Source: Xanthostigma xanthostigma
Lineage: Eukaryota > Arthropoda > Insecta > Raphidioptera > Raphidiidae
NCBI GenBank assembly: GCA_963575645.1
Contig: OY754469.1
Coordinates: 48,566,753 to 48,630,752, forward strand
Length of the DNA: 64,000 nt
Reading direction: 5' to 3'
A program made the translations under genes and the position numbers. Below the pieces are notes generated by a model. That model had not been told where the DNA came from, made no database searches, and worked only from the letters and a program-made list of their open reading frames with translations. This document shows, piece by piece, positions 3,060 through 62,230 of this stretch; positions within the stretch are counted from its first letter, which is position 1, and the number at the start of each line of letters is the position of its first letter.

Positions 3060-3200
3060 TCAGCTTCAGGCCCTGAAGATGAAAATAAATTTTTCGAAAC
3101 GTTGGCCACGAGCGTAACATTGGTAAAGCTTATTTATGATCCTCAACCAAAACCTTCCTTCATCGTAACATTCTATTGGATCAACATTACTTTATACTGA
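3060..3200 (+). mobile_element. Hammerhead-module repeat family B, fragment
   Basis: Module at 3069-3107: GGCC, CTGAAGA, hairpin GAAAA-taaa-TTTTC, GAAAC, GTT, GGCC. The two GGCC strands pair as stem I. Downstream words gatcctcaaccaaaacct and cattctattggatcaaca recur at 62,160-62,225 beside another copy of the module. Confidence 0.6.
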
Positions 3201-3354
3201 AGATATTTGCACCTTGAAAGAACATTTCTCTATGCATTTTGCAACCATTGAAAACAAATAATTCAAATTTAATTAATCCAAAAGTTCCAAATCCGTGGAT
3301 AAAGATTCAAGAATCTAGTACTAAATTTAAGAATTATTAATAACGTTTATTCAT

Positions 3355-3545
3355 TATTTTTAAATCTTTGATTACCTAACGTCTGAATAGAACTTTTCAA
3401 ATAAATAAAATTGTCGACCAATTTTTTTCAGACTGTATATTGACACAAAAAATAATATTTTAAATCAATATTACAAAAGATGACGTTTCGATCCGGATTT
3501 GGATCTTCTTCAGAAATAATCTAAGAAATATAAAAATTAATTAGT
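3355..3545 (-). mobile_element. Fragment of hammerhead-module repeat family A
   Basis: Contains taacgtctgaatagaac, aaataaaattgtcgacca and a minus-strand CTGAAGA, GATCC-loop-GGATC, GAAACGTC module at about 3,477-3,520. Stem I pairing is weak. Confidence 0.6.
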
Positions 3546-4095
3546 ATGTATCTACTTATTTTATAACAGAATGAAGTTAATTAATTATCGAAAATTAATC
3601 ATTATATTTAATTTGAAAATACAAAAATAATAAATGCCACATCCATTCACGGGATATGGGATATAAATTGATGTGATTAATTTTCTTTCAAGCAATGCTT
3701 TTAGCGACACCAGTCTATATGGCACACAATATTTTTACATTACCTGAAATAATGTTTCTGTAGTGTTGAGTAGCACTACAGACATATTCATATATTAAAA
3801 TCGTATGTATATTTTATCGCATTTGTGTATATTGTGAAGGTACGTTTTTTTACAAAAAATAATGTAAAACACTTAAAAAATATACACGCGACACAATCGT
3901 ACATTTTCCACAAAACATGGCACATCTCCGGAGAATTCGCAATTTATATAACGCGCAGACAAAAACATAACCGTGAAAAAAATGACCAAGTTCGGTACAA
4001 AGAGAACGAGTGGGTTCGTCGGCTTTGCCGGAAGACAGAATTGAGATCTAGGAGAGTGTCAAGTTTTCAGTCACGGGTCATTTCTTTATCTTGTA

Positions 4096-4400
4096 CTGAC
4101 TTGTGACGTCAATCAGCTACGTAGTTACTAGCTGGATTAATTCAAAACTAGAACCGGGATTATTTTTCGTGCTTGATTCTCTACTGGCCTCGAGCAAGAA
4201 TCAGATTCTAACACGTAGACGATGTGTCATAAACAAACATGGCGTCACAGTGTGCGTTCTGTTCAGAGACAATAAAAGTCCACTTTTGTTTAACACTCGA
4301 ACTGTCACTACGCGCATACGAAAACCATTTACAAATCCAACTTTGTGTGAAGCCAATACAAATCGTTCACAGCATGCTTAGAACCTAGTAGGCGTGGAAA
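4096..4400. mobile_element. Harbinger-like element family, internal fragment
   Basis: Internal sequence (aaacaaacatggcgtcacag, tgcgttctgttcagagac, ttacaaatccaac) is shared with the TIR elements at 41,725-42,163 and 60,647-61,040. No TIR is recognised here, so this is a truncated copy. The ORF at 4,103-4,381 is repeat-derived. Confidence 0.55.
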
Positions 4401-4416
4401 AAGTTGTTACTATGTG

Positions 4417-4540
4417 ATCACAGTGACTGTTATTCTAGTTTCACAAAAATCACAGTGAAAAATCATCGTGACTTTTATCTCTTGTCAGATCACAGTGATC
4501 ATTTTAGACGGCTGGTCACAGTGATTTTTTCATCGTGAAG
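4417..4540. repeat. Cluster of TCACAGTGA-type motifs
   Basis: At least four near-copies of a quasi-palindromic word (gatcacagtgac, aatcacagtgaa, gatcacagtgatc, ggtcacagtgat) occur in about 120 bp, with atcatcgtgac variants between. This may be a subterminal protein-binding array of an element; no element ends were identified. Confidence 0.45.
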
Positions 4541-4647
4541 ATATTTATTACCTAACTCGAAATCAAGCAACGGATTTAGAGGCGATACCAGCTCCGTGTG
4601 CGGCGGGCTTTTACATTCAGGCATTTGACTGTACGAATACATGTATA

Positions 4648-6313: not shown

Positions 6314-6734
6314 TATATTTTATGTTTTGAATATTTGTGAGCGCCCAAGTGAGAGTGGCTCGACAGAGGACTAGCGTAGTGTTGAAATGATGACGACATT
6401 CTTCTAACGTGAAGTGAAAAGCATTTCTATATGACGTGCCGCCATGTTCATGCGCGACGGGACTTGACGTTATATTTGTTCGTTATTACATAATAAATGA
6501 ACTGTCTGTACCTACTGCTAACAATCTTCTAATTTGAATGTGTCGAATACACTGATCATAGATATTAGTCGAAGATCTCATGTGAAAGAAATATAAACCT
6601 GAAAATATATTATATAAAATTAACAAGATTATATACCTACCAAAAAAATTGTACCCCCTTCAAAAAGAGTTATTGAAAAGCGTAAAATAACAAAGCTTTG
6701 AGGTAGGCGCGTATTTAATTAATATTGTAATAAT

Positions 6735-7830
6735 TAATATTATTAACGTAAGTTTGTAACATGAATATTATTTAATTCAACACATTTATTAACGTAAGTT
6801 TGTAACATGAATATTATTCAATTCAACATATTTATTAAAATAAAAAAATAGAGAATAGTTACTTCTTACCACAAAAAGTTTATTAGTGGATGTACATTTC
6901 GAGAGCTATGCTCTCATCTTCAGCAATACACTCTCGAAATGTACATCCACTAATAAACTTTTTGTGGTAAGAAGTAACTATTCTCTATTTCTTTATTACA
7001 TTCAAACCACAGTGCTCCTAATATATTTTTGTTTATATTTATTAACGTAAGTTTGTAACATGAATATTATTTAATTCAACATATTTATTAACGTAAGTTT
7101 GTAACATGAATATTATTCAATTCAACATATTTATTAACGTAAGTTTGTAACATGAATATTATTTAATTCAACATATTTATTAACGTAAGTTTGTAACATG
7201 AATATTATTCAATTCAACATATTTATTAACGTAAGTTTGTAACATGAATATTATTTAATTCAACATATTTATTAACGTAAGTTTGTAACATGAATATTAT
7301 TCAATTCAACATATTTATTAACGTAAGTTTGTAACATGAATATTATTCAATTCAACATATTTATTAACGTAAGTTTGTAACATGAATATTATTTAATTCA
7401 ACATATTTATTAACGTAAGTTTGTAACATGAATATTATTCAATTCAACATATTTATTAACGTAAGTTTGTAACATGAATATTATTTAATTCAACATATTT
7501 ATTAACGTAAGTTTGTAACATGAATATTATTCAATTCAACATATTTATTAACGTAAGTTTGTAACATGAATATTATTTAATTCAACATATTTATTAACGT
7601 AAGTTTGTAACATGAATATTATTCAATTCAACATATTTATTAACGTAAGTTTGTAACATGAATATTATTTAATTCAACGTATTTATTAACGTAAGTTTGT
7701 AACATGAATATTATTTAATTCAATACATTTATTAATTTAAGATCATACGCTCCGCTGCCATCTTGCCTCTGTTTCTCTACATGACCACCAGGGTACACCA
7801 GTGGCAGCGTGGCTTTTTAAGACGTGGTGT
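6735..7830. repeat. 46-bp tandem array with conserved right flank
   Basis: About 17 units of 46 bp (aacatatttattaacgtaag, then tttgtaacatgaatattatt, then taattc). Many units alternate between a ttaattc and a tcaattc ending, implying a 92-bp dimer period. Two units precede and about 15 follow an inserted palindrome (6,846-6,990). The right flank (tcatacgctccg, gccatcttgcctctgtttct, accagggtacaccagtg) also follows a short array at 40,195-40,440, so array plus flank move as one element. Confidence 0.85.
6846..6990. mobile_element. Palindromic insertion with hammerhead-like module
   Basis: Arms 6,846-6,905 and 6,931-6,990 are near-perfect inverted repeats (60 nt each) around a 25-nt centre. The minus strand of the left half reads CTGAAGA, hairpin GAGAG-catag-CTCTC, GAAAT. 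Stem II pairs perfectly; the conserved C after GAAA is T here. The insertion splits the 46-bp array. Confidence 0.75.
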
Positions 7831-7927
7831 TACAATATCACGTTTTATATATTTATTTTAAATTGGTGCCCAACTCACGGCTTTTACACTTTTTAGTGAC
7901 TTTTTGAAGGAGCTTAAATATTTTATT

Positions 7928-9124: not shown

Positions 9125-9224
9125 TATACAACTACACTTCACTATAGACTATAAATATTTTATACATTGTAACATTATAAAATTTCATTAGTAACATAAT
9201 TATTAGATATTTATAAATATTACG

Positions 9225-9480: not shown

Positions 9481-10090
9481 ACACCGTAGTTTTGTACAAA
9501 ATATTTAATAAAGACTATCCTATAGCGTAAGTTGAACCAATCAAGACACATTTACAAAATTTCATTGAAATCGGCTAGGTCAATTATAATTAAAATGAGT
9601 TTATTTGTTTGATTGTTATTTTCTTCGTTATTTCTTTTTAAGAAGTTTGTTTGTGAAAGGATTTTTACTTGTATTGTGTGTGGATTATTCCGTAATATTT
9701 TAAACGTAAAAATTTCAGTTTTTCTTGTAAACATACTCGGTCGTGATATTGACATAAACTTGATTTTAATGCATGAACAGTTGCGTCGTAGAAAGTTGTA
9801 CAACTGACAAACAATTGTTTCGTTGATAAACAACAAAAATGTCAAGGTGAGTCAATAAAAAAAATGAAAAAAACGTATAATTTAGAAACTTTTATTTGCA
9901 TCTCCTACACGTCACTTGGTGTTAAATAAAACAAATTTGAAAATTAATAAAACGCCGGATGTAGTATTCATTATAATACACTGCCATGAATCACGTTCAA
10001 CTTTGTTCTATATTCCATCACTTGTAAATTATCTTTTTTATAATAAAATACAGAAATTATAAATACCTACTATTCATGTAGTCAATATAA
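9481..10090. other. No recognised gene
   Basis: Overlapping ORFs at 9,552-9,845 (minus) and 9,613-9,807 (plus) are low-complexity and lack any known domain or splice context. I do not call a gene. Confidence 0.4.
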
Positions 10091-10096
10091 AAAAGT

Positions 10097-10376
10097 TATT
10101 AGAATATTAAAGGATGAAGCCTGGTGGCATAGGATCAATGAATTTTGAAAATACTGAAGGTTTTTTTATTGCATTTTGTTGTCTGACGTTTCGGCAATCT
10201 TTATGCCATCTTCAGAAAATCAATGCTGTCCGTTTTCTCAGTATTGTTGTTATGTAAAAAAGATGGCATAAAGATTTCCGAAACGTCAGACAATAAAATG
10301 CAATAAAAAAACCTTTAGTATTTGCAAAGTTCATTGATCCTATGCCACCAGGTTTCATCCTTTAATCTTCTAATAT
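10097..10376. mobile_element. Palindromic element with hammerhead-like module
   Basis: Arms of about 115 bp (ggatgaagcctggtggcata ... and its inverse ending ccaggtttcatcc) flank a short centre. The left arm on the minus strand reads CTGAAGA, TGGCA-loop-TGCC, GAAACGTC. The right arm has lost the CTGAAGA core (aaaaaga instead) but keeps the GAAACGTC side. Confidence 0.75.
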
Positions 10377-10514
10377 TTAATCAGGATCATCATCACTCTA
10401 AATTATTAGAGCTATTTTTCATAAAAAAGTTATGAAGCATTTTAATTTATCACCACGTTTTTATAAACTCGCTTTCTTGTATGTCTGTCCGGGTGGAATT
10501 TTGTAACTGATTTT

Positions 10515-21629: not shown

Positions 21630-24600
21630 AAACTTAGTCCACCATCTTTAGAAGTCCGCCATATTGGATTTAGAGTGACGTCACTTTATTTTTCGAGTTA
21701 TTCTCAGCAAGCCCTTTCATTTGATACCCATATTGTAGGAAAGCATAATAAAATTAGTCCGCCATCTTTAGAAGTCCGCCATATTGGATTTAGAGTGACG
21801 TCACTTTATTTTTCGAGTTATTCTCAGCAAGCCCTTTCATTTGATACCCATATTGTAGGAAAGCATAATAAAATAAGTCCGCCATCTTTAGAAGTCCGCC
21901 ATATTGGATTTAAAGTGACGTTACTTTATTTTTCGAGTTATTCTCAGCAAGCCCTTTCATTTGATACCCATATTGTAGGAAAGCATAATAAAATTAGTCC
22001 GCCATCTTTAGAAGTCCGCCATATTGGATTTAGAGTGACGTCACTTTATTTTTCGAGTTATTCTCAGCAAGCCCTTTCATTTGATACCCATATTGTAGGA
22101 AAGCATAATAAAATTAGTCCGCCATCTTTAGAAGTCCGCCATATTGGATTTAGAGTGACGTCACTTTATTTTCGAGTTATTCTCAGCAAGTCCTTTCATT
22201 TGATACCTATATTGTAGGAAAGCATAATAAAATTAGTCCGCCATCTTTAGAAGTCCGCCATATTGGATTTAGAGTGACGTCACTATATTTTTCGAGTTAT
22301 TCTCAGCAAGCCCTTTCATTTGATACCCATATTGTTGGAAAGCATAATAAAATTAGTCCGCCATCTTTAGAAGTCCGCCATATTGGATTTAGAGTGACGT
22401 CACTTTATTTTTCGAGTTATTCTCAGCAAGCTCTTTCATTTGATACCCATATTGTAGGAAAGCATAATAAAATTAGTCCGCCATCTTTAGAAGTCCGCCA
22501 TGTTGGATTTAGAGTGACGTCACTTCATTTTTCGAGTTATTCTCAGCAAGCCCTTTCATTTGATACCCATATTGTAGGAAAGCATAATAACATTAGTCCG
22601 CCATCTTTAGAAGTCCGCCATGTTGGATTTAGAGTGACGTCACTTCATTTTTCGAGTTATTCTCAGCAAGCCCTTTCATTTGATACCCATATTGTAGGAA
22701 AGCATAATAAAATTAGTCCGCCATCTTTAGAAGTCCGCAATAATGGATTTATAGTGACGAAACTTTATTTTTCGAGTTATTCTCAGCAAGCCCTTTCATT
22801 TGATACCCATATTGTAGAAAAGCATAATAAAATTAGTCCGCCATCTTTAGAAGTCCGCCATATTTGATTTAGAGTGACGTTACTTTATTTTTCGAGTTAT
22901 TCTCAGCAAGCCCTTTCATTTGATACCCATATTGTAGGAAAGCATAATAAAATTAGTCCGCCATCTTTAGAAGTCCGCCATATTGAAATTAGAGTGACGT
23001 CACTATATTTTTCGAGTTATTCCCAGCAAGCCCTTTCATTTGATACCCATATTGTAAGAAAGCATAATAAAAATAGTCCGCCATCTTTAGAAGTCCGCCA
23101 TATTGGATTTAGAGTGACGTCACTTTATTTTTCGAGTTATTCTCAGCAAGCCCTTTCATTTGATACCCATATTGTAGGAAAGCATAATAAAATTAGTCCG
23201 CCATCTTTAGAAGTCCGCCATATTGGATTTAGAGTGACGTCACTTTATTTTCGAGTTATTCTCAGCAAGCCCTTTCATTTGATACCCATATTGTAGGAAA
23301 GCATAATAAAATTAGTCCGCCATCTTTAGAAGTCCGCCATATTGGAATTAGAGTGACGTCACTATATTTTTCGAGTTATTCCCAGCAAGCCCTTTCATTT
23401 GATACCCATATTGTAAGAAAGCATAATAAAATTAGTCCGCCATCTTTAGAAGTCCGCCATATTGGATTTAGAGTGACGTCACTTTATTTTTCGAGTTATT
23501 CTCAGCAAGCCCTTTCATTTGATACCCATATTGTAGGAAAGCATAATAAAATTAGTCCGCCATCTTTAGAAGTCCGCCATATTGGATTTAGAGTGACGTC
23601 ACTTTATTTTCGAGTTATTCTCAGCAAGTCCTTTCATTTGATACCTATATTGTAGGAAAGCATAATAAAATTAGTCCGCCATCTTTAGAAGTCCGCCATA
23701 TTGGATTAAGAGTGACGTCACTATATTTTTCGAGTTATTCTCAGCAAGCCCTTTCATTTGATACCCATATTGTTGGAAAGCATAATAAAATTAGTCCGCC
23801 ATCTTTAGAAGTCCGCCATATTGGATTTAGAGTGACGTCACTTTATTTTTCGAGTTATTCTCAGCAAGCTCTTTCATTTGATACCCATATTGTAGGAAAG
23901 CATAATAAAATTAGTCCGCCATCTTTAGAAGTCCGCCATGTTGGATTTAGAGTGACGTCACTTCATTTTTCGAGTTATTCTCAGCAAGTCCTTTCATTTG
24001 ATACCCATATTGTAGAAAAGCATAATAAAATTAGTCCGCCATCTTTAGAAGTCCGCAATAATGGATTTATAGTGACGAAACTTTATTTTTCGAGTTATTC
24101 TCAGCAAGCCCTTTCATTTGATACCCATATTGTTGGAAAGCATAATAAAATTAGTCCGCCATCTTTAGAAGTCCGCCTTATTGGATTTAGAGTGACGTCA
24201 CTTTATTTTTCGAGTTATTCTCAGCAAGCCCTTTCATTTGATACCCATATTGTAGGAAAGCATAATAAAATAAGTCCGCCATCTTTAGAAGTCCGCCATA
24301 TTGGATTTAAAGTGACGTTACTTTATTTTTCGAGTTATTCTCAGCAAGCCCTTTCATTTGATACCCATATTGTAGGAAAGCATAATAAAATTAGTCCGCC
24401 ATCTTTAGAAGTCCGCCATATTGGATTTAGAGTGACGTCACTTCATTTTTCGAGTTATTCTCAGCAAGCCCTTTCATTTGATACCCATATTGTTGGAAAG
24501 CATAATAAAATTAGTCCGCCATCTTTAGAAGTCCGCCATATTGGATTTAGAGTGACGTAACTTTATTTTTCGAGTTATTCTCAGCAAGCCCTTTCATTTG

Positions 24601-25162
24601 ATACCCATATTGTAGGAAAGCATAATAAAATTAGTCCGCCATCTTTAGAAGTCCGCCATATTTGATTTAGAGTGACGTCACTTTATTTTTCAAGTTATTT
24701 TCAGCAAGCCCTTTCATTTGATACCCATATTGTAGGAAAGCATAAAAAACTTAGTCCGCTATCTTTAAAAGTCCGCCATATTGGTTTTAGACTGACGTCA
24801 CTTTATTTTTCGAGTTAATCTCAGCAAGCCCTTTCATTTGATACCCATATTGTAGGAAAGCATAATAACATTAGTCCGCCATCTTTAGAAGTCCGCCATA
24901 TTGAATTTAGAGTGACGTAACTTTATTTTTCGAGTTATTCTCAGCAAGCCCTTTCATTTGATACCCATATTGTTGGAAAGCATAATAAAATTAGTCCGCC
25001 ATCTTTAGAAGTCCGCCATATTGGATTTAGAGTGACGTCACTTCACTTTTCGAGTTATTCTCAGCAAGCCCTTTCATTTGATACCCATATTGTTGGAAAG
25101 CATAATAAAATTAGTCCGCCATCTTTAGAAGTCCGCCATATTGGATTTAGAGTGACGTCACC
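21630..25162. repeat. 120-bp satellite array, about 29 units, higher-order
   Basis: The unit contains agtccgccatctttagaagt, ccgccatattggatttagag, tgacgtcactttatttttcg, agttattctcagcaagccct, ttcatttgatacccatattg and taggaaagcataataaaatt. Single-base variants recur in order: a 1-bp-deleted unit, then ctatat/gttgg, agctct, cttcat and gacgaaac variants, at 22,141-22,860 and again at 23,581-24,180 (12 units apart). A 3-unit block at 22,981 is repeated at 23,341. Because 120 is divisible by 3 and one frame lacks stops, long ORFs (up to 282 codons) arise. The 1-bp deletions break them, so they are not genes. Confidence 0.95.
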
Positions 25163-26040: not shown

Positions 26041-26610
26041 AAACGTGTCATTATTTGAGAAAAAAGTGCTTTTCCCATTAATGTTTTATTTTTTATAAAA
26101 ATATAGTTATTAGAATTCGGACGTAGAAAAAATACCTATATACCAGAAGTTTTCAATATTGACAATACGTTTTTATAAAAGTTGTGATTTTATATAAAAT
26201 CCATTTATATGTTTCCATTAAAAAAAAAACTACTAGGTATCTATAGCGAATATATTATACAGTTAAAGGATGAGCGTGGTTTAATGGATGTTGATAAAAT
26301 GTTTTTATTTTATTGTTTTGTTTTTTGCAACTGTTTATTTTGAAAGCAACAACAAACCTACACAACAATATACCTTTTTTACAAACGTTATATCGGTCTA
26401 TTCTATTAATCTAATCTATAGAATAGTTTACAATATTATTAACACAAAACAATATCATTCTTATTCAATTTTAAAAACACTTAGTAGTATATTCATAGTT
26501 TGATATGATTAAATCGATTGTTTTCTAATCTGTACCAAACCGTGTTCTCAATGGACTCAAATTTATTTTTGTTAATTCATAAAATTTTAAAAACCAAATA
26601 AAAAATATGG
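26041..26610. other. No recognised gene
   Basis: AT-rich. A 71-codon ORF at 26,288-26,503 is hydrophobic at its start but has no recognisable family. Confidence 0.35.
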
Positions 26611-26612
26611 TA

Positions 26613-26868
26613 TGATGAAATTAACGGGATACAAGGCTAAATATAAAAACAATTTTTATTCACTAGAACTTCATTTAATAGTCAACGTTTCGGCAGAAAA
26701 TTTTGACTTCTTCAGGACCTTAAAAATGTTTAGTAAAAGTTTAAAGTCCTGAAGAAGGAAATATTTTCTGCCGAAACGTTGACTTTTAAATGAAGCTCTA
26801 GTGAATAAAAATTGTTTTTATATTTAGCCGTGTATCCCGTTAATTTCATCATACCATAATACCACGGT
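26613..26868. mobile_element. Palindromic element with two hammerhead-like modules
   Basis: Arms of about 105 bp (tgatgaaattaacgggatac ... and its inverse) face each other. Left-arm module (minus, 26,680-26,719): stem I GGUC/GACU. Right-arm module (plus, 26,743-26,786): stem I AAAGUC/GACUUU, core CTGAAGA, then GAAACGTT. Stem II is poorly paired in both. Confidence 0.8.
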
Positions 26869-26984
26869 GTCTTATTTTATTTTATAAAAAATATGAAATG
26901 TGTTCATATAATTATTATAAATACGTATTGCTATAAATCGAGAGTTCTGGCATTTTCAGATGCTACCCTTGAAAAAACTTCTTA

Positions 26985-29564: not shown

Positions 29565-29957
29565 TCACGCTGCCCCAAAAATGTTTGATAGCTCTTGAAC
29601 TATAATGAAATCTAAAAATGGCGGTAATACTAATACGTACTCGTAGTTTTTCTTTTCCAAGTATACTTTAAGATCGTAAGCTCGCTCCAAGTACTCCATA
29701 CACTTCGTACGAATAGCATCTTTGCCTTTGTCTCCCGTCGCCTCATCTACAACACAAAGATGAATTGATTTCCGACCATAGAACAAAACGTGTCGTTCGA
29801 AATACGATTTGCGATAATTACATATTATTGCGTATAAAAAATACTCAATTCCATCTTCGTAGAACCTCAGTGCTTCGGCGTAGTTTCTTTTGTTATCTTC
29901 TTCGACAGCTCTTCTAAACAATTCGACAGCCTGCGTAAGGTTGCACAAAGGGAGCAT
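29565..29957 (-). CDS. MIT-domain-only gene, paralogue 1 (two exons)
   Basis: Exon 1 is 29,957-29,822 from an ATG and exon 2 is 29,746-29,565. The 75-nt intron (29,747-29,821) has donor GTAATT and acceptor TTTGTGTTGTAG and happens to be open in frame. The spliced protein of about 105 residues is an MIT domain: LTQAVELFRRAVEEDNKRNY, AEALRFYEDGIEYFLYAIIY, then EATGDKGKDAIRTKCMEYLE and RAYDLKVYLEKK. The exact YEATGDK junction produced by splicing matches VPS4-type proteins and supports the intron. The last 25 or so residues (from NYEYV) are not MIT-like; the stop lies in a hairpin (29,533-29,573). There is no AAA ATPase domain. It is a tandem paralogue of the gene at 28,600-29,031, about 0.55 kb away, on the same strand. 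It may be a short ESCRT-III binder, or a detached part of a larger gene with long introns. Confidence 0.7.
   Translation of the reverse strand: MLPLCNLTQAVELFRRAVEEDNKRNYAEALRFYEDGIEYFLYAIICNYRKSYFERHVLFYGRKSIHLCVVDEATGDKGKDAIRTKCMEYLERAYDLKVYLEKKNYEYVLVLPPFLDFIIVQELSNIFGAA
29747..29821 (-). other. 75-nt spliceosomal intron in MIT paralogue 1
   Basis: Donor GTAATT and acceptor TTTGTGTTGTAG. The 25-codon translation of the intron (starting CNYRKSYFERH) interrupts the MIT domain between helix 2 and helix 3; its removal restores the family sequence. Confidence 0.8.
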
Positions 29958-30019
29958 GTTTGGAGTAATACAAGCAATAGCCGCAATGCCAGCAAACCCT
30001 GTCGACCAATTAATAAATT

Positions 30020-37597: not shown

Positions 37598-37950
37598 TTT
37601 CAAATCTTTGATTAACGTCTGATTAGAATTAAATAAAATTATCGACCAATTTTTCAGACAATATATTAACAAAATATAATTAATACATTAACGTTTCGAT
37701 CCCGATTTGGATCTTCTTCAGAATGGATCTAAAAATATAAAAAAAATAATTAATACTTATTTAGTTTCTATTTATTTTTAACGAAATTCGTGAATAAATA
37801 GAAACTAAATAAGTAGTAATTATTTTTTTATATTTTTAGATCCATTCTGAAGAAGATCCAAATCGGGATCGAAACGTTAATGTATTAATTATATTTTGTT
37901 AATATATTGTCTGAAAAATTGGTCGATAATTTTATTTATTGAAAAAGTAT
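37598..37950. mobile_element. Palindromic family A element with paired hammerhead-like modules
   Basis: Arms of about 150 bp are inverted around about 37,793. The minus module (37,686-37,725) and plus module (37,843-37,882) each read CATT, CTGAAGA, GATCC-loop-GGATC, GAAAC, GTT, AATG, so both stems are paired. The ends carry aaataaaattatcgaccaat and its inverse. This is the best-preserved copy of the family. Confidence 0.85.
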
Positions 37951-39852: not shown

Positions 39853-40194
39853 TCTTTATATATTCAAAGATGTTAATGAATTCTGTAACACCTTCGAGGA
39901 ATGGTGCTCATTTTTTTATGTGTCGAGTGTATACAAGGCAACATTGCACGAGACTGCAAGGCTTCTATGTAATGTTTCCTGCACTCTACCGCTCCATGTA
40001 CGTCCTATATGTAGATAATATACAGGGTGTCAGAAAAAATCAGCTGAAATTTCAGGAGTGTATTCCTAAAAAAAGTTATATCATCATATATGTTCGATTC
40101 GGATAGGTTAGCTAGTTATCTTGTTGAAGGAAAAAAATCAGACATAATACTTTTTATTGATCAAAAATTAAATTTGCAACAATTATTATCTATT

Positions 40195-40440
40195 ATTTTA
40201 TTCAACATATTTATTAACGTAAGTTTGTAACATGAATATTATTTAATTCAACATATTTATTAATGTAAGTTTGTAGCATGAATATTATTTAATTCAATAC
40301 ATTTATTAATTTAAGTTTTTTAACATGAACTCCCTAGTTCATACGCTCCGCAGCCATCTTGCCTCTGTTTCTTTACATTACCACCAGGGTACACCAGTGT
40401 CGGCGTGGCTTTTTAAGACGTGGTCTTACACATTCAAAGT
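40195..40440 (+). repeat. 46-bp tandem repeat (2-3 units) with conserved flank
   Basis: aacatatttattaacgtaag units are followed by tcatacgctccgcagccatc, ttgcctctgtttct and accagggtacaccagtg. Same unit and flank as 6,735-7,830. Confidence 0.85.
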
Positions 40441-40489: not shown

Positions 40490-40918
40490 GCGGTAATAAT
40501 AATAATGCGCATAACGTCCGTTTCTCGACTTTATGTCATAACAGAAACCATTCACACCATTACTATTTTCTATCTCTCACATTTCCTGTTATTTTCCACA
40601 GTTTTAAACTTCCGTTAATTAATAGCAATGGGCGAATGAAGGAATTTTTAGGAAATTATGGTAAGGTAGGCAAATTTTGAGCCATAGGCGTTTGACAGGT
40701 AATCGGCCATGGCCTTGAATAAGGGACCATCTCGATATTTATCTGGAATTATTGAGGGAAACCATGGAAAACCTCAACAAGATCGCCGGTACAGGAATTA
40801 CCGTTTCTCGGCGAGAGGCAGCAGGAGAAAGTCCCAGCCATATCTGCTCCCGCCGGGATTCAAACCCGGTACCTCCCGACTGCGAGTCTAGTTCTCTCAC
40901 CACTACACCACCCCGCTT
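40490..40918 (-). mobile_element. tRNA-derived SINE family S1, copy 2
   Basis: Minus-strand head with box B (ggtttgaatcccggcggg), body and (ATT)n tail. Target-site duplications were not resolved. The ORFs at 40,709-40,961 are SINE sequence. Confidence 0.85.
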
Positions 40919-41149
40919 GGTATTTGAGGATGAAACCGAATTTTCTCTGCAGCATTCTTAAAGGTTATAATCCAGTGGAGTTAAGTCTGAAGATCGTGGT
41001 GGCCAAGAAATTGTTTTCAAAGTCTAACTCCTTACAGTTTTGAACAGTTGGTTGTTTTCTTCAACAAGTTATAGCTTGCTCACCTTTTCGAATCTAACCT
41101 GAGGAATACATTCCTGAATTTCGGCAAATTCCTCACGGGACACTCTGTA

Positions 41150-42621: not shown

Positions 42622-44171
42622 CATACAGATTGTATCAAATCAAAACAGTCCATAGAACATTCTGTGTGTAAGACAGAGACGATATTATAGATAGATAGAT
42701 AGAGATCTTTATTTTGTTGGTACAATTAATGTACATAAATAGCGTCAACACAAAAACAATTAATTATAAAAACTCGTTCAATCTGTAGTGAGCCTTACTT
42801 AATAAATATTTTTTTAAATTCTTCCTAAACTTTTGTTTAGAATTTGTTAGAGTTATTTCAGTAGGTATCTTATTGTGTATTCGTATCATAGCGTTGCGGA
42901 CACCTTTATGAGCCACTGCTAATGTACAATTAGTAGTTTTTAAATTATTCTTATTTCTTGTGGTATATTCATGTTTATTATGATTTTCATTAAACAAAGA
43001 TGGATAGTTTTGTACAAAATTTGCACAATTTAGAATATAAAGATCTACTAGTGTTAGTATGTTATACTGAATAAATAAATTTTTACAATGTTCTCTAGGT
43101 GCCACACCCGCTATGATACGAATACACTTTTTTTGGATTAAAAAAACTTTTTCTGCCCATACCGAATTGCCCCAAAAGATTATTCCATACTGGATAATAG
43201 ATTGGAAATATGCATGATAGACATTAAGCAGAATGTCGGTACTAGTATATTTTTTTAAATAAGTAAGAACGAATTTAGCTTTATTTAACTTAGGCAAAAT
43301 GTAGTCAATATGTTGTTTCCAGTCGAGATTATTGTCTATGTATAGACCGAGAAATTTAACTGAATCTTTAATATATGAGAATATGTCTAAGTTTAGTAAT
43401 TGTGGGATGTTAAAGTAATTTCCAAGCTTAATTATTTCTGTTTTAGTGTCGTTTACTTTAAGGCTGTTATTTGCAAACCATTTGCTTAAATCTATCATGC
43501 ATTTTTCCAATCTATTTTTTAAAAGCGCCTGATCTCTTCCCTCACATATGACAGCAGTGTCATCAGCAAACAAGAAGATTTTATTGTTAGTAGCCAACGG
43601 AAGATCGTTTATAAATAATATGAAGAGCAGAGGTCCTAAGATACTACCTTGAGGTACCCCTCTCGTAATTAGTTGCCAGTCTGACATACTTTCATTAATA
43701 CCGGAGCTAGTATTTATTTTAACTTTTACGCTTTGTTTTCTGTCTATAAAGCACTACAGCAGTAAGTAAGATTGAGATAAATAATCGCTAATAGTTACTA
43801 TGGTTATTCAATCTGATAGTGTCGTCTTTGTTTTCTACAGTAAAAATCACAATTTTATCAAATGTCAGTATTCACTAGTGAAATTATTGATAAAATGGCT
43901 ATTTATACTGTTCGGGAAAAAAATCCAAATAATTAAATGGTTTTATGGTGGTAATTCAACCGCCAACATAATAAATTTATTTGTAGTTGTTTTAATTGAT
44001 AAATTGGTAAAAGGATTTACAGTGTACGTAATTATTTATTTACGTAACTACAGTAACTATATTAGCGATCATTTATCTCATTCTTACTTACTGCTTTAGA
44101 TCTTTATATATCGTCTCTGTCTTACACACAGAATGTCCTATGAACCGTTTTGATTTGATACAATCTGTATA
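42622..44171. mobile_element. TIR element T1, copy 1, with nested LINE
   Basis: Ends tacagattgtatcaaatcaa, aacagtccatagaacattct, gtgtgtaagacagagacgat and the inverse at 44,108-44,168. A second copy spans 45,179-48,417. The interior after the LINE (tattgataaaatggctattt, acagtgtacgtaattat) matches 48,050-48,230 inverted. The LINE fragment at 42,684-43,755 was inserted near the left TIR. Confidence 0.75.
42684..43755 (-). pseudogene. 5'-truncated CR1/Jockey-type LINE with RT catalytic core
   Basis: The minus-strand coding runs from about 43,752 to a stop at 42,764 without interruption, over about 330 codons. It starts inside the RT domain (FIDRKQSVKVKINTSSG). It contains the B motif GVPQGSILGPLLFILFINDL and the catalytic C motif FADDTAVIC, followed by LSKWFANNSLKVNDTKTEII and SIIQYGIIFWGNS of the thumb and C-terminal region. 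The endonuclease and 5' RT motifs are absent, so it cannot act alone. The 3' tail is (TCTA)n, seen as tagatagatagatagaga at 42,688. The reading frame is intact, which suggests a recent insertion. It lies inside TIR element T1 copy 1. Confidence 0.92.
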
Positions 44172-44596
44172 TAGAGTGTACATTATAAAAGTATAGTCGC
44201 TTATTATTAATAATAATCGCAGGATTGTGGACAAAAAGTTATTTGTTTAGTGTACGACGTTTCGTCTATAGATTTAGACTTTTTCAAGTACAAATGTGAA
44301 AATTTAAATTTACATTCAATAAAGGCTGCATCTATTCGTACAGTTACCGTACGAATAATATATACTTATTCGTACAGCTATTAAAAATTATTATTCGTAC
44401 GGGTACTGTAAAAATTTTATTTCAAGAAAAAAAATTGTACAAACGCCTGAAATTAACTAAATTCACATACAAACGTCAAAATAACTAACATTTAGGCACC
44501 ATATTGTATTGCACTAAACAGTAACACCACACTTATAATGTTTTATTACACTGTGACGTAGAAATACAATTATTTTTACGACGTTTGATTTTAGTT

Positions 44597-45045
44597 TGAT
44601 TTTAGTTTTTGTTTTTTATTTTTTTTTCACTTTGAGACTGATTTTCTAAAAAATATTTATTTAATTGACTGTCAATTAAATATACATTTTTTAGAAAACG
44701 CAGTTCTATTTAAACAATTAACTATCTAATTCGCATACCCCGTTATCGTTCACCACGGAATTGTTTTTTTTTTAACTCAACATTTGCCCCTTCCCGTTTC
44801 ACTGCGAGACAATTCGCATACCCCTTTATCGTTCACCCCGGAATTACAATTCGCATACCCGTTTATCGTTCACCCCGGAATTGTTTTTTTAAAAACTCCA
44901 CATTTGCCCCTTCCCGTTTCACTGCGAGACAATTCGCATACCCCTTTATCAAAAAAAGCGGTGGTTTTCAATCTTCATGAAAACGTGAGTTTTAAGTTGT
45001 AGTCTCAAAGTGAAAAAAAAATAAAAAGTAAAAACAAAACTCATT
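44597..45045. mobile_element. TIR element carrying the 120-bp tandem repeat
   Basis: ttttttttcactttgagact (44,618-44,638) is inverted at 45,001-45,025 (agtctcaaagtgaaaaaaaa), giving TIRs of about 40 bp. Inside are a perfect AT hairpin (44,647-44,699) and two units of the repeat seen at 1-234. The ORF at 44,784-45,002 is tandem-repeat sequence. Confidence 0.75.
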
Positions 45046-45178: not shown

Positions 45179-48100
45179 TATACAGATTGTATCAAATCAA
45201 AACGGTCCATAGGACATTCTGTGTGTAAGACAGAGACGATATATAAAGATCTAAAGCAGTAAGTAAGAATGAGATAAATGATCGCTAATATAGTTACTGT
45301 GGTTACATAAATAAATAATAGGTCATATGCATGAGACTCCAAATTTTGAAATATATTTTAGTTGCTGATCATATCGTAATGGTTATTTTATTAATCTACT
45401 CGCTGAAAAAAATACAAATAATAAAATAGAAACGTAGAAAATACGCGCTATTTTCGAATTTTCAAAACGCAGCGTGACGTCAGAGTATATATCAATAACA
45501 GTTTCCATGGCGACTGGGTCGTCTCACAGTAAGATTACGTCAGTATTTAGAGAAAACAACAAATAAACTTCATTTAGAACTATTCATTATTAACGTCCAA
45601 TATTATTCAATTATAAGATTTATTACGGGTATGTGGACAAATTTAACACGTTAAATGATTGTAAATTTGCAACGTTTCGTATTTTTATTAATACATCATC
45701 AGGCAACTGAAACAATTACAATGAAACATAGTATATTATTATGAATAATTATAAAATTAAAATCTGTAACAAACCTTTACAGTTTTAACGATATGTCAAA
45801 ACAATATACTAATCCCCACATGTTGATTGAAACTTATTTCTTGAAAGAAAATTATCACATCAGTTTACTGACAAATTAAAAATTTTGAATTATAAATCAT
45901 AAAATTCCAATATCCCTTTTTTTTCTTATATATATATTAACACTACTGCAGTAGTCATGGCACCAAAACAGCTGATAAGTGCTGGAACTAGATCAAAACG
46001 CATCAGCGTCTGTCAGTAAACATGTCACTGCAGCTAGCGGTGAATTTAATTATTAACAGTAAAGGGTATAGCCGGATAGATATGGCGAGTTGGCCCCCAA
46101 ATGGCAACCTATATCGAAACTTATGTTTTAATATCTACTTGATGTACGAACTCTTTTTATATATGTGTTACCCCCGCACTCCCCTTTGACCTTGAGTTAT
46201 AGACCAAAAACCAGCCTACCTACGACTATCGTTCAAAGAGACATATATCGAAAACTAATTGAGCTAAAGAGGTAAAACCAACGCGAGCATTTAGGTAACC
46301 TTTAAGAGCACATTTTATATTTTTTTTGGATTTTTGCGAATAATTACACACAATATTAAAAAATAAATAAAAATATAATTTTCAATTTTTCAGTGTTCTC
46401 TGTGACTTACAATCACTGAAATAATATATATTGTGGCACTTGATATGCACTACTACACATACAAATTGCGTTAGAAAAAAGTTGGTGCAACACTTCGAAA
46501 AAAAATTTTTTTGACGCGCATCACATCATATAAGGATACAAACTTGACATAGTACACACATATATAAATATTTTATTAATTAAAATTATTGTTAGAATGG
46601 ATTGAATGAAAATATAAACAATTTTCAGGAAAATATGGATTTCATACGGCGCGGTGCCGGGAATTATACGAGCGACAGCGAGTTCGTACTTGTTATTGCA
46701 CTGCTTGTTATTTACATAAAGTCTTAACTCTTAAGTACGTTAAGTTCGAACTCGATGTCGCTCGTATAATTCCCGGCACCGCGCCGTATGAAATCAATAT
46801 TTTCCTGAAAATTGTTTATATTTTCATTCAATCCATTCTAACAATAATTTTAATTAATAAAATATTTATATATGTGTGTACTATGTCAAGTTTGTATCCT
46901 TATATGATGTGATGCGCGTCAAAAAAATTTTTTTTCGAAGTGTTGCACCAACTTTTTTCTAACGCAATTTGTATGTGTAGTAGTGCATATCAAGTGCCAC
47001 AATATATATTATTTCAGTGATTGTAAGTCACAGAGAACACTGAAAAATTGAAAATTATATTTTTATTTATTTTTTAATATTGTGTGTAATTATTCGCAAA
47101 AATCCAAAAAAAATATAAAATGTGCTCTTAAAGGTTACCTAAATGCTCGCGTTGGTTTTACCTCTTTAGCTCAATTAGTTTTCGAGATATGTCTCTTTGA
47201 ACGATAGTCGTAGGTAGGCTGGTTTTTGGTCTATAACTCAAGGTCAAAGGGGAGTGCGGGGGTAACACATATATAAAAAGAGTTCGTACATCAAGTAGAT
47301 ATTAAAACATAAGTTTCGATATAGGTTGCCATTTGGGGGCCAACTCGCCATATCTATCCGGCTATACCCTTTACTGTTAATAATTAAATTCACCGCTAGC
47401 TGCAGTGTACATGTTTACTGACAGACGCTGATGCGTTTTGATCTAGTTCCAGCACTTATCAGCTGTTTTGGTGCCATGACTACTGCAGTAGTGTTAATAT
47501 ATATATAAAAAAAAAAGGGATATTGGAATTTTATGATTTATAATTCAAAATTTTTAATTTGTCAGTAAACTGATGTGATAATTTTCTTTCAAGAAATAAG
47601 TTTCAATCAACATGTGGGGATTAGTATATTGTTTTGACATATCGTTAAAGCTGTAAAGGTTTGTTACAGATTTTAATTTTATAATTATTCATAATAATAT
47701 ACTATGTTTCATTGTAATTGTTTCAGTTGCCTGATGATGTATTAATAAAAATACGAAACGTTGCAAATTTACAATCATTTAACGTGTTAAATTTGTCCAC
47801 ATACCCGTAATAAATCTTATAATTCATTTAGAACATTGACAATTTGACATCAAAGTTGACATGCATCATATATCGTGACGTCACATAAGCCCGCCAACAT
47901 GGCCGATTGTTTAAACTGTCTATTTTTGAATGTGAAATTTAATATTTTTTTTCTTATGATAATATTACATTTTTAAATGATTATCAATTTTTTTCGTATT
48001 ATGGTTGACTAAATAATTTTTTAAAAATATAAAAAAAATACATGCATATGACCTATTACGTACACTGTAAATATTTTTACCAATTTATCAATTAAAACAA

Positions 48101-51509: not shown

Positions 51510-52004
51510 TTGACCGAACAGTGAAGCGTAGTGGTGAGAGCACTAGACTCGCATTCGAGAGGTACCGGGTTCGAATCCCGGCAGGGGCAGACGTGGCGGA
51601 AACTTTTTCCTGCTGCCTCTCGCCGAGAAACGGTAATTCCTGTACCGGGCCGTCTTGTTGAGGTTTTCCATGGTTTCCCTCAATAATTCCAGATAAATAT
51701 CGAGATGGTTCCTTATTCAAGGCCATGGCCGGACTACAACTCTTAGGCCTAGTTTATATGAGAGGCGTTCAACGCGCGTTGAGCGCTCTTCATGTGTGCT
51801 AGGCCTTATGCTCAAAATTGCTTTCCTTATCCTAATGTTCTAAAATTCCTTCATTCACCCATTGCTATTTATTAAGTGGAAGTTTAAAAATGTAGAAAAT
51901 AACGGGAAGTGTGTGCTAGATGGAAAATAGTAATGGTGCGAATGGCGTCTGATATGACATAGAATCGAGAAACGGACGTTAAACGCATTATTATTATTAT
52001 TATC
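51510..52004 (+). mobile_element. tRNA-derived SINE family S1, copy 4 (with MITE insertion)
   Basis: Plus-strand head gaagcgtagtggtgagagca with box B gggttcgaatcccgg (51,568-51,582), body, and tail ttattattattat at 51,988-52,004. A 60-bp MITE is inserted at 51,746-51,805. This is the best copy for defining the head. Confidence 0.9.
51746..51805. mobile_element. 60-bp Harbinger-type micro-MITE
   Basis: Only two facing TIRs of about 29 bp (GGCCTAG...GTTCAACGCG and inverse) with TTA on both sides (51,743-51,745; 51,806-51,808). The other SINE copies lack this segment, so the insertion is confirmed by comparison. The TTA duplication suits PIF/Harbinger. Confidence 0.88.
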
Positions 52005-52734: not shown

Positions 52735-53015
52735 TTTAAATAAATAAAATTATCGACCAATTTTTTCAGACAGTATATTGACAAAAAATTATAAAATTAT
52801 AATTCAATAAATGACGTTTTAGTCCGGATTTGGACCTTCTTCAGAAATAATCTAAAAAATATAAAAATGAATTAGTATCTACTTATTTTCTAATGGATTT
52901 AAGATTGAATTATTGAATTATAATTTTTGTCAATATACAGTCTGAAAAAATTGATCGATAATTTTATTTATTTGAAGAGTTCTATTCAGACGTTAATCTA
53001 AGATTTGAATTACAA
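52735..53015. mobile_element. Family A palindromic element
   Basis: aaataaaattatcgaccaat near 52,742 is inverted at 52,955-52,975. Minus-strand module near 52,813-52,850: CTGAAGA, GGTCC-loop-GGACT, then AAAACG (one base off GAAAC). Confidence 0.7.
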
Positions 53016-53915: not shown

Positions 53916-53916
53916 T

Positions 53917-55018: not shown

Positions 55019-55019
55019 A

Positions 55020-56265: not shown

Positions 56266-56266
56266 A

Positions 56267-56434: not shown

Positions 56435-56496
56435 TATTTATAATTAAATTTGATTAAATTATGAAACTTAAATGATTTTTGTTCGTATGCAGTACG

Positions 56497-56792: not shown

Positions 56793-56833
<41 letters not shown>

Positions 56834-58242: not shown

Positions 58243-59250
58243 GTAATTAAATTTTATTTTACGTCTGTAATCATTATTAAATACCTGAAAAATATCATAA
58301 TTGTTATTTTGTTAACAAAAATAAGATTTAAAACATTTAGAAATTAAAAATGTATATCATTTATGTAGTTTTTTTTACTGGCATTGTGCGTAAATATTTT
58401 TTTATAATTAAGAATAACGCTGGTTTCCATATGTTTGTAAGTTTTGGGTGAACCACTTTTGAAAAATCAAACAGGAGATGGTGCGAAGGTCGCGTGTCAA
58501 AGATACTGACTGAATATGAGATGATAAAAAATAGTTTGAATTTGGGGAATATTGCGTTTTTAATTGAACCACATGATGATCTATTTAAGATTTATTCCAA
58601 AACTCACTTATGTACAAATCGAAAAAAATTTAATCAAAAATGTACATTTTTTAAGATCTATCGTTTATTTTGAGAGCAATAGATTAATTTAAAAGTATAA
58701 AAAAGCTTATTTTATGCTTTGTTATGTTTTTTCTTAATTCCATAGTTTGATGATTTTGTTGTAGTTTAAAGAATATTATTTTTGGTTAATAAATAAAATT
58801 GACTCGTATTTATAAAAGAAATGAAAGTAGTATTAGCAATTACCGTCCTTTTATAAAAAAACATAATAAAGTTGAGTGTATTAACTTTTGTTATTGCATA
58901 AAAATATATAAAATTCAAGTGTCAACCATTTAAACATAATCATTGAAACAGACTTCAGTATTTTCATTTAATTTGTATTTTAATAACAGGAATTTGTATT
59001 GTTTTTCCTTCAAGTATTTTTTAATATTCGAGCCTAAACAATATCACTTAATGCACTTTTCAAAAAAATACAGAAAAGAAGCTTCAAGGTACTTGCAATT
59101 TTTTATTTATTCTCTTTTTGTATCTTCTTCCTTTGTTACATAAAACAGTATTCTTGTTAACCACTGGGACACAAAGTGCAAAGCACATAAATTAATATTA
59201 AAGTTATTTTATACGTTTTGCAGATTATATATTTTTGAGTCAGATGTATT
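58243..59250. other. Putative THAP intron and unassigned sequence
   Basis: AT-rich sequence after the splice donor. I looked for the C-x2-H half of the finger and did not find it. The stretch at 58,470-58,530 (aaacaggagatggtgcgaag) has an AG acceptor but no matching residues. Confidence 0.4.
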
Positions 59251-59254
59251 ATTT

Positions 59255-59850
59255 AATAAATAAAATTGTCGACCAATTTTTCAGACAAATATATTAACAA
59301 AAAATAATAATACATTAACGTTTCGGCCCGGATTTGAATTTTCTTCAGAACTGATCTAAAAAATACCCCCTGCACCCTTCATCTCAAATCTATTCCCCTC
59401 GCCTAAAAACGGTTTGCGCTCTCCCGACGCTATTTTTAAAGCTAGAGGGTTCTGGTAAACGCCAAATGAAAGACAAAGAATCAGACTACAGATCCTTCAG
59501 GCGAATTTTTTGAAAAAAAATTCCTGAAAAAACTTACAACCTTTTGAAAAAAATAATAAGTTACGTAATATTTCACACGTAGGCGAAACTGTTTTGCAAA
59601 AAATTCGCCTGAAGGATCTGTAGTCTGATTCTTTGTCTTTCATTTGGCGTTTACCAGAACCCTCTAGCTTTAAAAATAGCGTCGGGAGAGCGCGAACCGT
59701 TTTTAGGCGAGGGGAAAAGTTTTGAGATGAAGGGTGCAGAGGATTTTGCAGGGACGAATACTCTTAAGTTTTGAATTATCAAAATTGAAAAAATAATTTT
59801 ATTTATTGAAGAATTCTAATCAGACGTTAATAAAAGATTTAGATATATTA
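59255..59850. mobile_element. Family A element with a nested foldback
   Basis: The left end (aaataaaattgtcgaccaat, minus-strand CTGAAGA ... GAAACGTT module near 59,312-59,350 with a broken stem II) and inverse right end (ttttatttattgaagaattc, taatcagacgttaat) enclose the palindrome at 59,362-59,755. Confidence 0.7.
59362..59755. mobile_element. Foldback element with 145-bp arms
   Basis: ctgcacccttcatctcaaat, tcgcctaaaaacggtttgcg, ctagagggttctggtaaacg, gattctt-type words in the left arm are inverted almost exactly in the right arm (to gatgaagggtgcag). The centre is about 100 bp and AT-rich. Confidence 0.85.
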
Positions 59851-60645
59851 TTTGTTACAAAACCAATTACATTTATTATAATGATCTAAATTTATGTTTG
59901 AGAAAATGAACTTATAGTTAAACGTTTTTTATATTTGAGAAAACGTGTTGTGACAAATGTGGCAAGTATGTCATTAAAAAGAAAATGTCAGTTTCCGTGA
60001 AATTGCGAACTTATTAGTGGATATATGGTTAGACAGGATGCATGAGCGTACATGTGCGACTGAGAGGAACGCACACGAACGTCTGTAAATTCGTGTTTCT
60101 GATTTAAGTACCGTAGATTTAGCATTCATACGCGGCTATTTGGAAAGAAAACGCTGCGAAGGTTGTTTTTTTAAAATATACTGGCACTTAACCTCACTCT
60201 AGAGTCGAAGTTCAGTATTTTCTAGGCAATGTTTATTTGTCAAATGAAATAAAAGGGATTATTATTATTTATTATTATTATAGTTGCTTGGCCAAAACGG
60301 AACTTCGTTTTCCACCTGCGACCGAAGCAAAAGTCAGTGTATTTTAAATATGCTAAAAAAGGCGCGGAAAAATACTTATTCTTGGAAGCCGAACGAAATT
60401 GGGTTGATCAATAATTCTTATTTAAAATAAATTTTTGTTTGCGCATGTCTGATTTAAATAAAACAATACTCAGTCAATTATTCAGCACATCCGCCTATGG
60501 CACAACTTTCGGCCGGTTTTGCCCAAATGTTTTGTCGAGGGTTCAATTATTCGCCGGAAATGACCGAAGACAAAACTTCGGTCGGACTTACCTATATATT
60601 AGTTAAAACAGTAAGACGCAGGTATAGAAACGCCGACTCACTGTA
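59851..60645. other. No recognised gene
   Basis: Contains a short ATT/ATTA tract near 60,260-60,285. No gene. Confidence 0.4.
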
Positions 60646-60646
60646 A

Positions 60647-61040
60647 AGCTGGCTGCACACGACGCTGATTTTGTCGCTAGATTTAGCTGCTCACGCGCTG
60701 GCTACGAGACTGGAAATGACGTCACTGCGGGCTTGCGTGCAAGGTCACAAGCTGGATTTCAAAATTAGAACAGGGGCTAGTTTGTCCGCGAACCAATCAT
60801 AAAACAGTATCTTGTGACGGACAAACGCCCACAAACAAACATGGCGTCATAGTGTGTGTTCTGTTCAGGGACAATTAACGTCCACTTTTGTTAACATTCG
60901 AACGCACCAAACCGGTCTACAAAGCAAGCATCGTGTGAAGCGAACACGTAAATATCGTCACCATAACCAGCACTATAGCATGCTTGAAACCTAGCAAGAT
61001 GCATATCTAGCGGCAAATCCAGCCTCGTGTGCAGCGGCCT
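60647..61040. mobile_element. Harbinger-like MITE, relative of 41,725-42,163
   Basis: TIRs agctggctgcacacgacgct and the inverse agcctcgtgtgcagcggcct; interior words cacaaacaaacatggcgtca and tgtgttctgttcaggg are shared with the other copies. The flanking triplets (TAA/GAA) do not match exactly. The minus ORF at 60,891-61,109 is not a gene. Confidence 0.75.
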
Positions 61041-61166
61041 GAAGGCTACGGCCCTTGTCACAAGACATTCGTGTGCGACTGTTACGAGCTTAAAAGATCC
61101 AAGCTTCAAGGAAATTTAAATTTATTTACCCCTTCTGTTTAGAACTCTCATAAATAGCATTAATAA

Positions 61167-61499
61167 TAGAGCTGTAACAAACCGTATGTATTCGTTACTG
61201 AGTAAAGGGTACATCGTCTGACTCGAAGTAACGAATCGTTACTTACAAATTCATTTCGTTACTCGCGTTTGTCGTATCCATGTCAGTTCGACTCGTTTGA
61301 TGCGGTTATACGTTATACGAACGAAGTCATACCGTATCACGTATGCGACGCGACTCGATGCGATGATACATGCTCGATTCTGTTAGTACACGATTGTATG
61401 TCGTATGAAAAGTAACGAGTAACGTAACGATACGAAAGTAACGGGTATTGGTAACGAATACATACGGGTACACAATTTCTCGTTACTTTTACAGCCCTA
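61167..61499. mobile_element. hAT MITE, 333 bp, exact 8-bp target duplication
   Basis: Ends TAGAGCTGTAAC and the inverse of TAGGGCTGTAAAAG, flanked by ATTAATAA at 61,159-61,166 and 61,500-61,507. At least eight gtaacga/tcgttac words lie near both ends. Confidence 0.92.
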
Positions 61500-61920
61500 A
61501 TTAATAATTCGTTGAAGAATATAATTAATAATTAATAAACATTGGATTGCAAGTGTGGTAAATCTAAATAAAACATAAATTTATTGTGTACAAAACGCTT
61601 GTAATGTAGAAATTTAAAATGTATATGTATATTGCCAAATATTGTACATTAGATAACAAAATAATTACTTATATATTAATTAATAATACATCATATTCTT
61701 ATGCATAATAATTATTTAGAGATTCCTTTTTGTATACAAATGCCCTTACATTTGTCTTCGTAATAATAAAGCTACTGTGTAAATAAATTAATATTATATT
61801 TTAAAAGGTCGCTTTTTTAATATTGTATGTTCCTAATATACTTAGCAGATCCTGAAGAAAAAGGTAAGTGACAGCCAAGATAATTATTATACCTCCAGCC
61901 CTCGATTTACAGGGTTCTAT
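61500..61920. other. No recognised gene or element
   Basis: AT-rich, no ORF. Confidence 0.4.
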
Positions 61921-61924
61921 AAAA

Positions 61925-62230
61925 TGTTCGGAAGAAATATTTATGTACGAAAAATAAGCTTTACCAATGTTTCACTAGTGGCCAACGTTTCGAAAAATGT
62001 ATCTTCATCTTCAGGGCCTATGAACACGTATATATGTATATAATTTAGAACATATTGTATCTTACAATTTTAGTATACAAAGAACCATGCTTAAACGATA
62101 AGTTTTAGTTAAAGCTACTACATTGGCCACTAGCGAAACATTGTTAAAGCTTATTTTATGATCCTCAACCAAAACCTTCCTTCATCTTAACATTCTATTG
62201 GATCAACACTACTTTATACTGAAAAAATAA
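61925..62230 (-). mobile_element. Hammerhead-module repeat family B, palindromic copy
   Basis: Minus-strand module at 61,980-62,018: GGCC, CTGAAGA, GAA...TTTTC hairpin, GAAAC, GTT, GGCC. The right half (62,130-62,225) has lost the core but keeps attggccactagcgaaacat and the tail gatcctcaaccaaaacctt seen at 3,128. Confidence 0.7.

Follow-up and report, generated by a model that had tools for sequence, protein, structure and literature searches.

Hammerhead ribozyme-like modules in Penelope-like elements of Xanthostigma xanthostigma

A recurrent hammerhead module

We analyzed a stretch of 64,000 nt from the genome of the insect Xanthostigma xanthostigma (Raphidioptera, Raphidiidae; GenBank assembly GCA_963575645.1, contig OY754469.1, positions 48,566,753 to 48,630,752 of the forward strand), hereafter the window, in which a short module resembling a hammerhead ribozyme recurs within insertions of Penelope-like elements (PLEs). 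The original prediction, made from sequence, named nine coordinates and described the module as a stem I strand, CTGANGA, a paired hairpin, GAAAC, GTT or GTC, and the stem I complement. The module is present at all nine, and the stem I pairs that were quoted (GGCC/GGCC, GGUC/GACU, AAAGUC/GACUUU, CAUU/AAUG, UUGC/GCAA, and GUAC/GUAC) are correct. CTGANGA is found at eight of these coordinates; the remaining one, 44252, reads CTTGAAAAA and its core is broken. The claimed stem II pairing is poor at 26685 and 26749 (3/5 pairs each); the covariation of stem II across families is described below. The layout is likewise real but leaves out a single A or T that follows CTGANGA and precedes stem II in 15 of the 15 tabulated sites of families A to F (Table 1). 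Additional module sites were located at 1223, 1634, 3483, 6894, 10186, 52814, and 59318.

Table 1. Ribozyme modules and their carrier insertions in the window (TSD, target-site duplication)
Feature	Position	Strand	Description
C1	3073..3103	+	Minimal hammerhead; stem I GGCC/GGCC, stem II GAAAA/UUUUC, H17=U
C2	61984..62014	-	C1 family; inverted partner arm 62120-62223 starts ~5 nt before predicted cut; no clear TSD
D1	10185..10215	-	Hammerhead; stem II GGCA/UGCC, H17=C
B1	26684..26715	-	Hammerhead; stem I good, stem II weak (3/5 pairs)
B2	26749..26780	+	Hammerhead; stem I good (AAGUC/GACUU), stem II weak (3/5 pairs)
A4	37690..37721	-	Hammerhead; stem I CAUU/AAUG, stem II GAUCC/GGAUC
A5	37847..37878	+	A4 module on opposite arm
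E1	45671..45702	-	Hammerhead; stem I UUGC/GCAA, stem II GUAUU/AAUAC
E2	47731..47762	+	E1 module on opposite arm
F1	6893..6923	-	Hammerhead; stem II GAGAG/CUCUC, AUGU replacing ACGU, position 17 = A
A1	1222..1253	-	Family A copy, decayed; stem II 3/5 pairs
A2	1633..1664	-	Family A copy, decayed; GACA for GAAA, stem I mostly lost
A3	3482..3513	-	Family A copy; stem II intact, stem I weak, H17=C
A6	52813..52844	-	Family A copy; stem II paired via change on both sides, AAAA for GAAA, stem I weak
A7	59317..59348	-	Family A copy; stem II 3/5 pairs
G1 (predicted at 44252)	44246..44297	-	Related module, catalytic core broken; stem I GUAC/GUAC, stem II GUCUA/UAGAC
Insertion D	10100..10420		Head-to-head inverted arms 86 + 133 nt (cut to end); 13-bp TSD ATAAAAAAGTTAT (10087-10099, 10421-10433)
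Insertion B	26610..26883		Inverted arms 75 + 103 nt, tail right; 12-bp TSD ATAAAAAATATG
Insertion A4/A5	37601..37947		Inverted arms 90 + 69 nt, tail left; 13-bp TSD TATTTGTATTTTT
Insertion E	45581..47824		2.2-kb near-palindrome, arms 91 + 62 nt, tail left; TSD CATTTAGAAC (45571-45580, 47825-47834)
PLE insertion F	6839..7034		Within 46-bp tandem array; repeated target ATATTTATTAA at 6828-6838 and 7035-7045 (boundaries by eye)

The exact pattern CTGANGA..GAAACGTH occurs at 12 sites in the window, as compared to a mean of 0.02 and a maximum of 1 in 200 dinucleotide shuffles, and a stem II of at least 4 bp accompanies it at 8 window sites and at none in the shuffles. The reading of the constant letters as a hammerhead core is sound: CUGANGA, GAAA, and A15.1-U16.1 all match, and the full core (C3-A9, G12-A14, A15.1-U16.1, H17) is present in the 12 exact sites and in F1. 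Position 17 is U, C, or A and never G in the 15 tabulated sites. Altered cores are seen in A2, A6, and at 44252, and several window copies are decayed. The covariance-model search that had been proposed was carried out with a model trained on 12 window modules and returned 16 window matches above 30 bits. Two of the matches (44246 and 1623) lie outside the training set and two further ones repeat training rows; the match at 44246, G1, reached 33.6 bits though outside the training set.

Stem III is a loopless, two-pair, self-complementary ACGU in 14 of the 15 tabulated sites, with AUGU at F1. The statement that minimal stem III forms are known in PLEs holds. Minimal type I hammerheads in PLEs were published by Cervera & de la Pena 2014 and by Lunse, Weinberg & Breaker 2017, according to passages in PMC6155905, PMC7761336, and PMC6466107, and those passages describe the same core, a loopless stem III, a location in the pseudo-long terminal repeat (pLTR), and many dispersed copies. 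The window modules are further members of this published group. A possible difference from the published consensus is the additional A or U that nearly all copies counted here have after A9, ahead of stem II. In the host genome (623 Mb), a core pattern that itself required ACGU gave 14,727 exact matches with A or T and then G after A9 (reversed control, 1), as compared to 258 with C or G there (control, 5). It should be noted that the two patterns differ slightly in gap range and that visual inspection suggests many of the 258 to be copies of the same families with point mutations.

A residue at this place has precedents. In the plus-strand hammerhead of Chrysanthemum chlorotic mottle viroid, an unpaired A directly follows A9 (in the relevant passage of PMC3705267), but this is a viroid with A only, whereas A or U is found here. 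Hammerheads in viral contigs (L040, L048, L052, L057, L059, and others) share CUGAUGA-U-stem II-GAAAC, although the U after A9 was required by the search pattern, and they differ, by eye, in having a real stem III and a stem I closed by CCCGU/ACGGG. A stem II of at least 4 bp was found in 23 of 106 matches to the pattern. By eye, seemingly ordinary hammerheads with stem III formed are present in the viral contigs L040, L048, L052, L056, L057, L059, L065, L084, L089, L091, L093, and L099, the last containing two.

Pairing of stems I and II across families

Stems I and II are formed in the module and covary between families. When one representative of each of the six window families was aligned (A4, B2, C1, D1, E1, and F1, hand-chosen by the analyst), 48 of 54 stem I and stem II pairs formed, and among all 720 reassignments of the 3' strands only the true pairing reached this number. 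Taken separately, reassignments as good as the true pairing numbered 1/720 for stem I and 3/720 for stem II. With six genome families added, each by a single hand-chosen representative, 90 of 96 pairs formed and none of 200,000 permutations did as well. In the 12-row alignment, 83.3% of cells were paired as compared to 54.8% in shuffles (0/500 as high), and sliding the partners by 1-3 columns lowered the paired share to 29-54%. Decay is visible over the 49 tabulated rows, in which 151 of 196 stem I cells and 188 of 196 stem II cells were paired. Stem II was fully paired in 76 of the first 100 genome places among the matches listed. The selection at the RNA level that the original prediction inferred is therefore supported, since the two stems covary across families far beyond permutation.

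Carrier insertions and their link to Penelope-like elements

The modules had been described as lying in unrelated elements. The carriers that can be placed are instead families of one kind of retroelement, the PLE. The clear copies in the window form part of head-to-head inverted repeats, which are pLTR pieces of PLEs, and the insertions are PLE-like, with a TSD of 10-14 bp and a tail of ~21-47 nt at one end. Four of them (A4/A5, B, D, and E) have exact 10-13 bp TSDs and unequal arms; shared words of at least 10 bp were found in 27 of 400 random position pairs. The right arm of D is truncated within the ribozyme. Insertion F splits a 46-bp tandem array (6740-6838 and 7035-7735, also present at 40191-40329), and therefore the empty target site is visible. 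No clear TSD was found for C2, A6, and A7. Two carriers contain additional palindromes: copy A7 has a second one between the ribozyme arm and the tail arm (59362-59522, 59587-59747), and the interior of insertion E (45925-47508) holds a further near-perfect palindrome with 666-nt arms (99%), in which three short frames were scanned with no Pfam match over the cut-off.

The same anatomy was found at other loci of the genome. An inverted partner was present at 22 of 34 examined ribozyme places, corresponding to 19 distinct elements, and 15 of these 19 have a TSD of at least 8 bp (one offset ≤6 nt, the other ≤60 nt), as compared to 27 of 300 random pairs. Among elements with a TSD of at least 10 bp, 11 of 12 are one-tailed, with 25-47 nt on one side and ≤2 nt on the other; the exception, L126, has a palindromic word. 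One of three 8-bp cases, L106 (low complexity), is without a tail. Neighboring motifs less than 2 kb apart, in the first 100 places among the matches listed, were oriented -+ in 19 cases, ++ in 2, and +- in none. Published Penelope insertions match in pLTR, tail, and TSD, according to passages of PMC3846280, and those of the Adineta vaga Penelope share the head-to-head inverted pLTRs, a one-sided tail (31 bp), and a TSD of 8-10 bp; the paper never uses the word hammerhead, and the window copies differ in having no remaining open reading frame (ORF). The tail has been described as the stretch between two reverse transcriptase (RT) start sites (PMC11167929).

A direct link to coding PLEs came from a genome search for the GIY-YIG endonuclease (EN) domain, which gave 37 matches, 30 of which were examined in sequence. 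The main family comprises 18 loci (L147-L164, some overlapping), and RVT_1 and GIY-YIG lie in one frame in both copies scanned. The window F ribozyme is carried by all 18 loci, on the same strand and downstream of the GIY-YIG domain, being letter-for-letter identical in 15 and having 1-3 changes in three. For family F, the ribozyme is located in the pLTR of a PLE with RT and GIY-YIG. Inverted copies of this family (L157, L159, L161/L162, and L164) have one short arm and one tailed arm in 4/4 cases. Four other GIY-YIG places (L135, L141, L142, and L144, which overlaps L146) carry different ribozyme families downstream on the same strand, and RVT_1 was seen in L141.

The Poseidon PLE of Anolis carolinensis (PMC11167929) shares a ribozyme at the pLTR-ORF junction and a tail between two RT start sites. 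As in families C, D, E, and F here, stem II of its ribozyme opens with an ATG, and the cut site lies ~25-26 nt downstream of it. In the anole element, a long ORF begins within the ribozyme; this arrangement was considered for the present families and rejected, as the frames close early in families C, E, and F. Translation from the ribozyme ATG of family F would yield only MRA*, and the first Met of the next long ORF lies 118 nt past that ATG in the one tandem pair that was read.

Alternative explanations, a tentative mechanism, and neighboring repeats

Based on the core, the covarying stems, and the carriers, we consider it very probable that several PLE families carry these modules in their pLTRs as minimal type I hammerhead ribozymes, whose self-cleavage is predicted from sequence. 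Several observations weigh against this assignment. No Rfam hammerhead model, searched as originally proposed, matches the window even at E values up to 10 (all families). RF00008 matches nothing in the host genome, its 14 control genomes being equally silent. Neither the window with all families nor the genome with RF00008 gave a score above a gathering threshold, which amounts to an annotation gap. In the 12-row alignment, pairs changed on both sides numbered 8 as compared to 6.8, which is not unusual (137/500 shuffles). RNAfold gave stems I and II together for only 3 of 7 sequences (A4, C1, and C2; in C1 and C2 the extra U was paired to G12), and cofolding returned no clear double hammerhead. 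Stem II of family B is weak. A family A subfamily with H17=C is common (18 of the 100 listed genome places), and the tabulated copies mostly have a single contiguous stem I pair. Among the families of the window, a direct link to an RT + EN ORF was obtained for family F but not for families A-E, and the strict pattern found no ribozyme at seven GIY-YIG loci (L136-L140, L143, and L145). Separately, we observed no contiguous stem I and an intact stem II in H17=C copies at window positions 3483 and 52814 and at L105, L108, L110, L116, and L117. Because this subfamily has little contiguous stem I, many copies may be inactive.

The inverted repeats around the clear window cases, and the lack of a PLE RT or EN among the 8 window ORFs scanned, would also fit a signal that acts at the DNA level and only looks like a hammerhead, for example a site bound at the termini of a foldback, MITE-like DNA transposon, or a hairpin of such an element. 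This is very unlikely: the conserved letters are exactly those of the hammerhead core, those in paired positions covary from one family to the next, and all 18 loci of an RT + GIY-YIG family have the F motif downstream of their GIY-YIG domain. The motif also lies 60-130 nt inside the ends, and these are one-tailed rather than the symmetric terminal inverted repeats of a foldback element; no search for transposases was made. Retrozymes, small circular-RNA elements with canonical type I hammerheads, would account for the core, for the short non-coding carriers, and for the two same-strand neighbors noted above. Metazoan retrozymes, however, are described in passages of PMC7229834 as tandem repeats of ~170-400 nt whose motifs are of the canonical type I, whereas here stem III is loopless, close neighbors are inverted in 19 of 21 cases, and short direct tandem repeats with a canonical motif were not found. 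We give this explanation hardly any weight.

A fossil ribozyme that no longer cuts, now kept as an RT start or protein-binding region or for the context of a start codon, is a stronger competitor but still improbable. In its favor, the anole PLE continues to insert when its ribozyme is mutated, and none of its RNA reads has an end at the cut (PMC11167929). Here, the common family A subfamily has a weak stem I, and none of 24 post-cut segments (22 distinct places) at the F loci starts at the cut, in a sample biased toward long copies because the loci were selected for a GIY-YIG domain. Relative to the cut, asymmetric partner arms at other loci start at ≤-297, ≤-331, -19, +18, +19, and +41, and window arms at about -26 (D), -13 (F), and -5 (C2, near the cut). 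A cleavage footprint at copy ends was thus not seen in these small samples. Against a fossil stands the compensatory pairing across 12 families with intact cores, which is best explained by purifying selection on the parents. Each window copy would itself be a dead insertion, selection having acted on the parent elements.

Returning to the hammerhead assignment, an ACGU stem III without a loop would require either a double hammerhead or help from protein. The former is described for loopless stem III in passages of PMC6466107 and PMC7761336, and the latter for a PLE ribozyme in PMC11167929. Being self-complementary, ACGU would allow two copies, in one transcript or two, to join into a double hammerhead with cleavage 3' of position 17, a mechanism published for hammerheads of PLEs. 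The PLE protein cuts and primes on both target strands (PMC11167929). Here, it would nick both strands and prime reverse transcription on each, the two internal RT start sites would come to lie at the two ends of the copy, and palindromic copies would arise because both strands are primed from these two sites. The template RNA would be mostly uncut, in line with the F loci, where no post-cut segment starts at the cut.

A possible splice acceptor lies next to the module. Of the 12 families, 8 have a YAG whose end lies 3-7 nt upstream of C3, as compared to 11% of random window positions (binomial 7e-6); this value flatters, since the range was picked after seeing the data and genome copies were substituted for B (L111) and K (L142). 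Spliceosomal introns are described in PLE pLTRs in a passage of PMC11722881, and no convincing 5' splice site was found for the supposed pLTR intron. We tentatively propose, as a possibility that is less probable than its alternatives combined, that the PLE ribozyme is a leader-exon ribozyme, with stem I at the 3' splice site of the pLTR intron, which would survive splicing and be kept uncut in the template RNA, and that each of the two internal RT start sites is used once, one per target strand, yielding one-tailed palindromes. If so, the ribozyme would act on translated or tandem transcripts and not on the transposition template. The role of the hammerhead for Penelope elements is stated as unknown in passages of PMC7761336, and the titles and abstract openings surveyed, a survey that excludes Cervera & de la Pena 2014 and Lunse 2017, do not mention the ribozyme together with the extra nucleotide and a splice acceptor. 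With at least 14,727 copies from twelve or more families in this genome, and with insertion ends that record how each copy arose, the order in which cutting, splicing, and reverse transcription occur can be tested by counting.

The window contains further features. MicroRNA matches at 10161-10311, 26669-26795, and 59474-59634 were rejected as palindrome artefacts below the family thresholds. An RVT_1 frame at 42764-43753 looks like a LINE reverse transcriptase, and a separate frame at 29565-30017 has an MIT domain and is possibly a host gene. A 120-bp satellite with 29.5 copies occupies 21630-25161, with open frames spanning units, and a different 120-bp unit is found at 1-231 and 44728-44950. 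tRNA-derived SINE-like repeats are located at 51522-51583, 62919-62980, and 40709-40921, with one tRNA match over the Rfam cut-off and the others below it.

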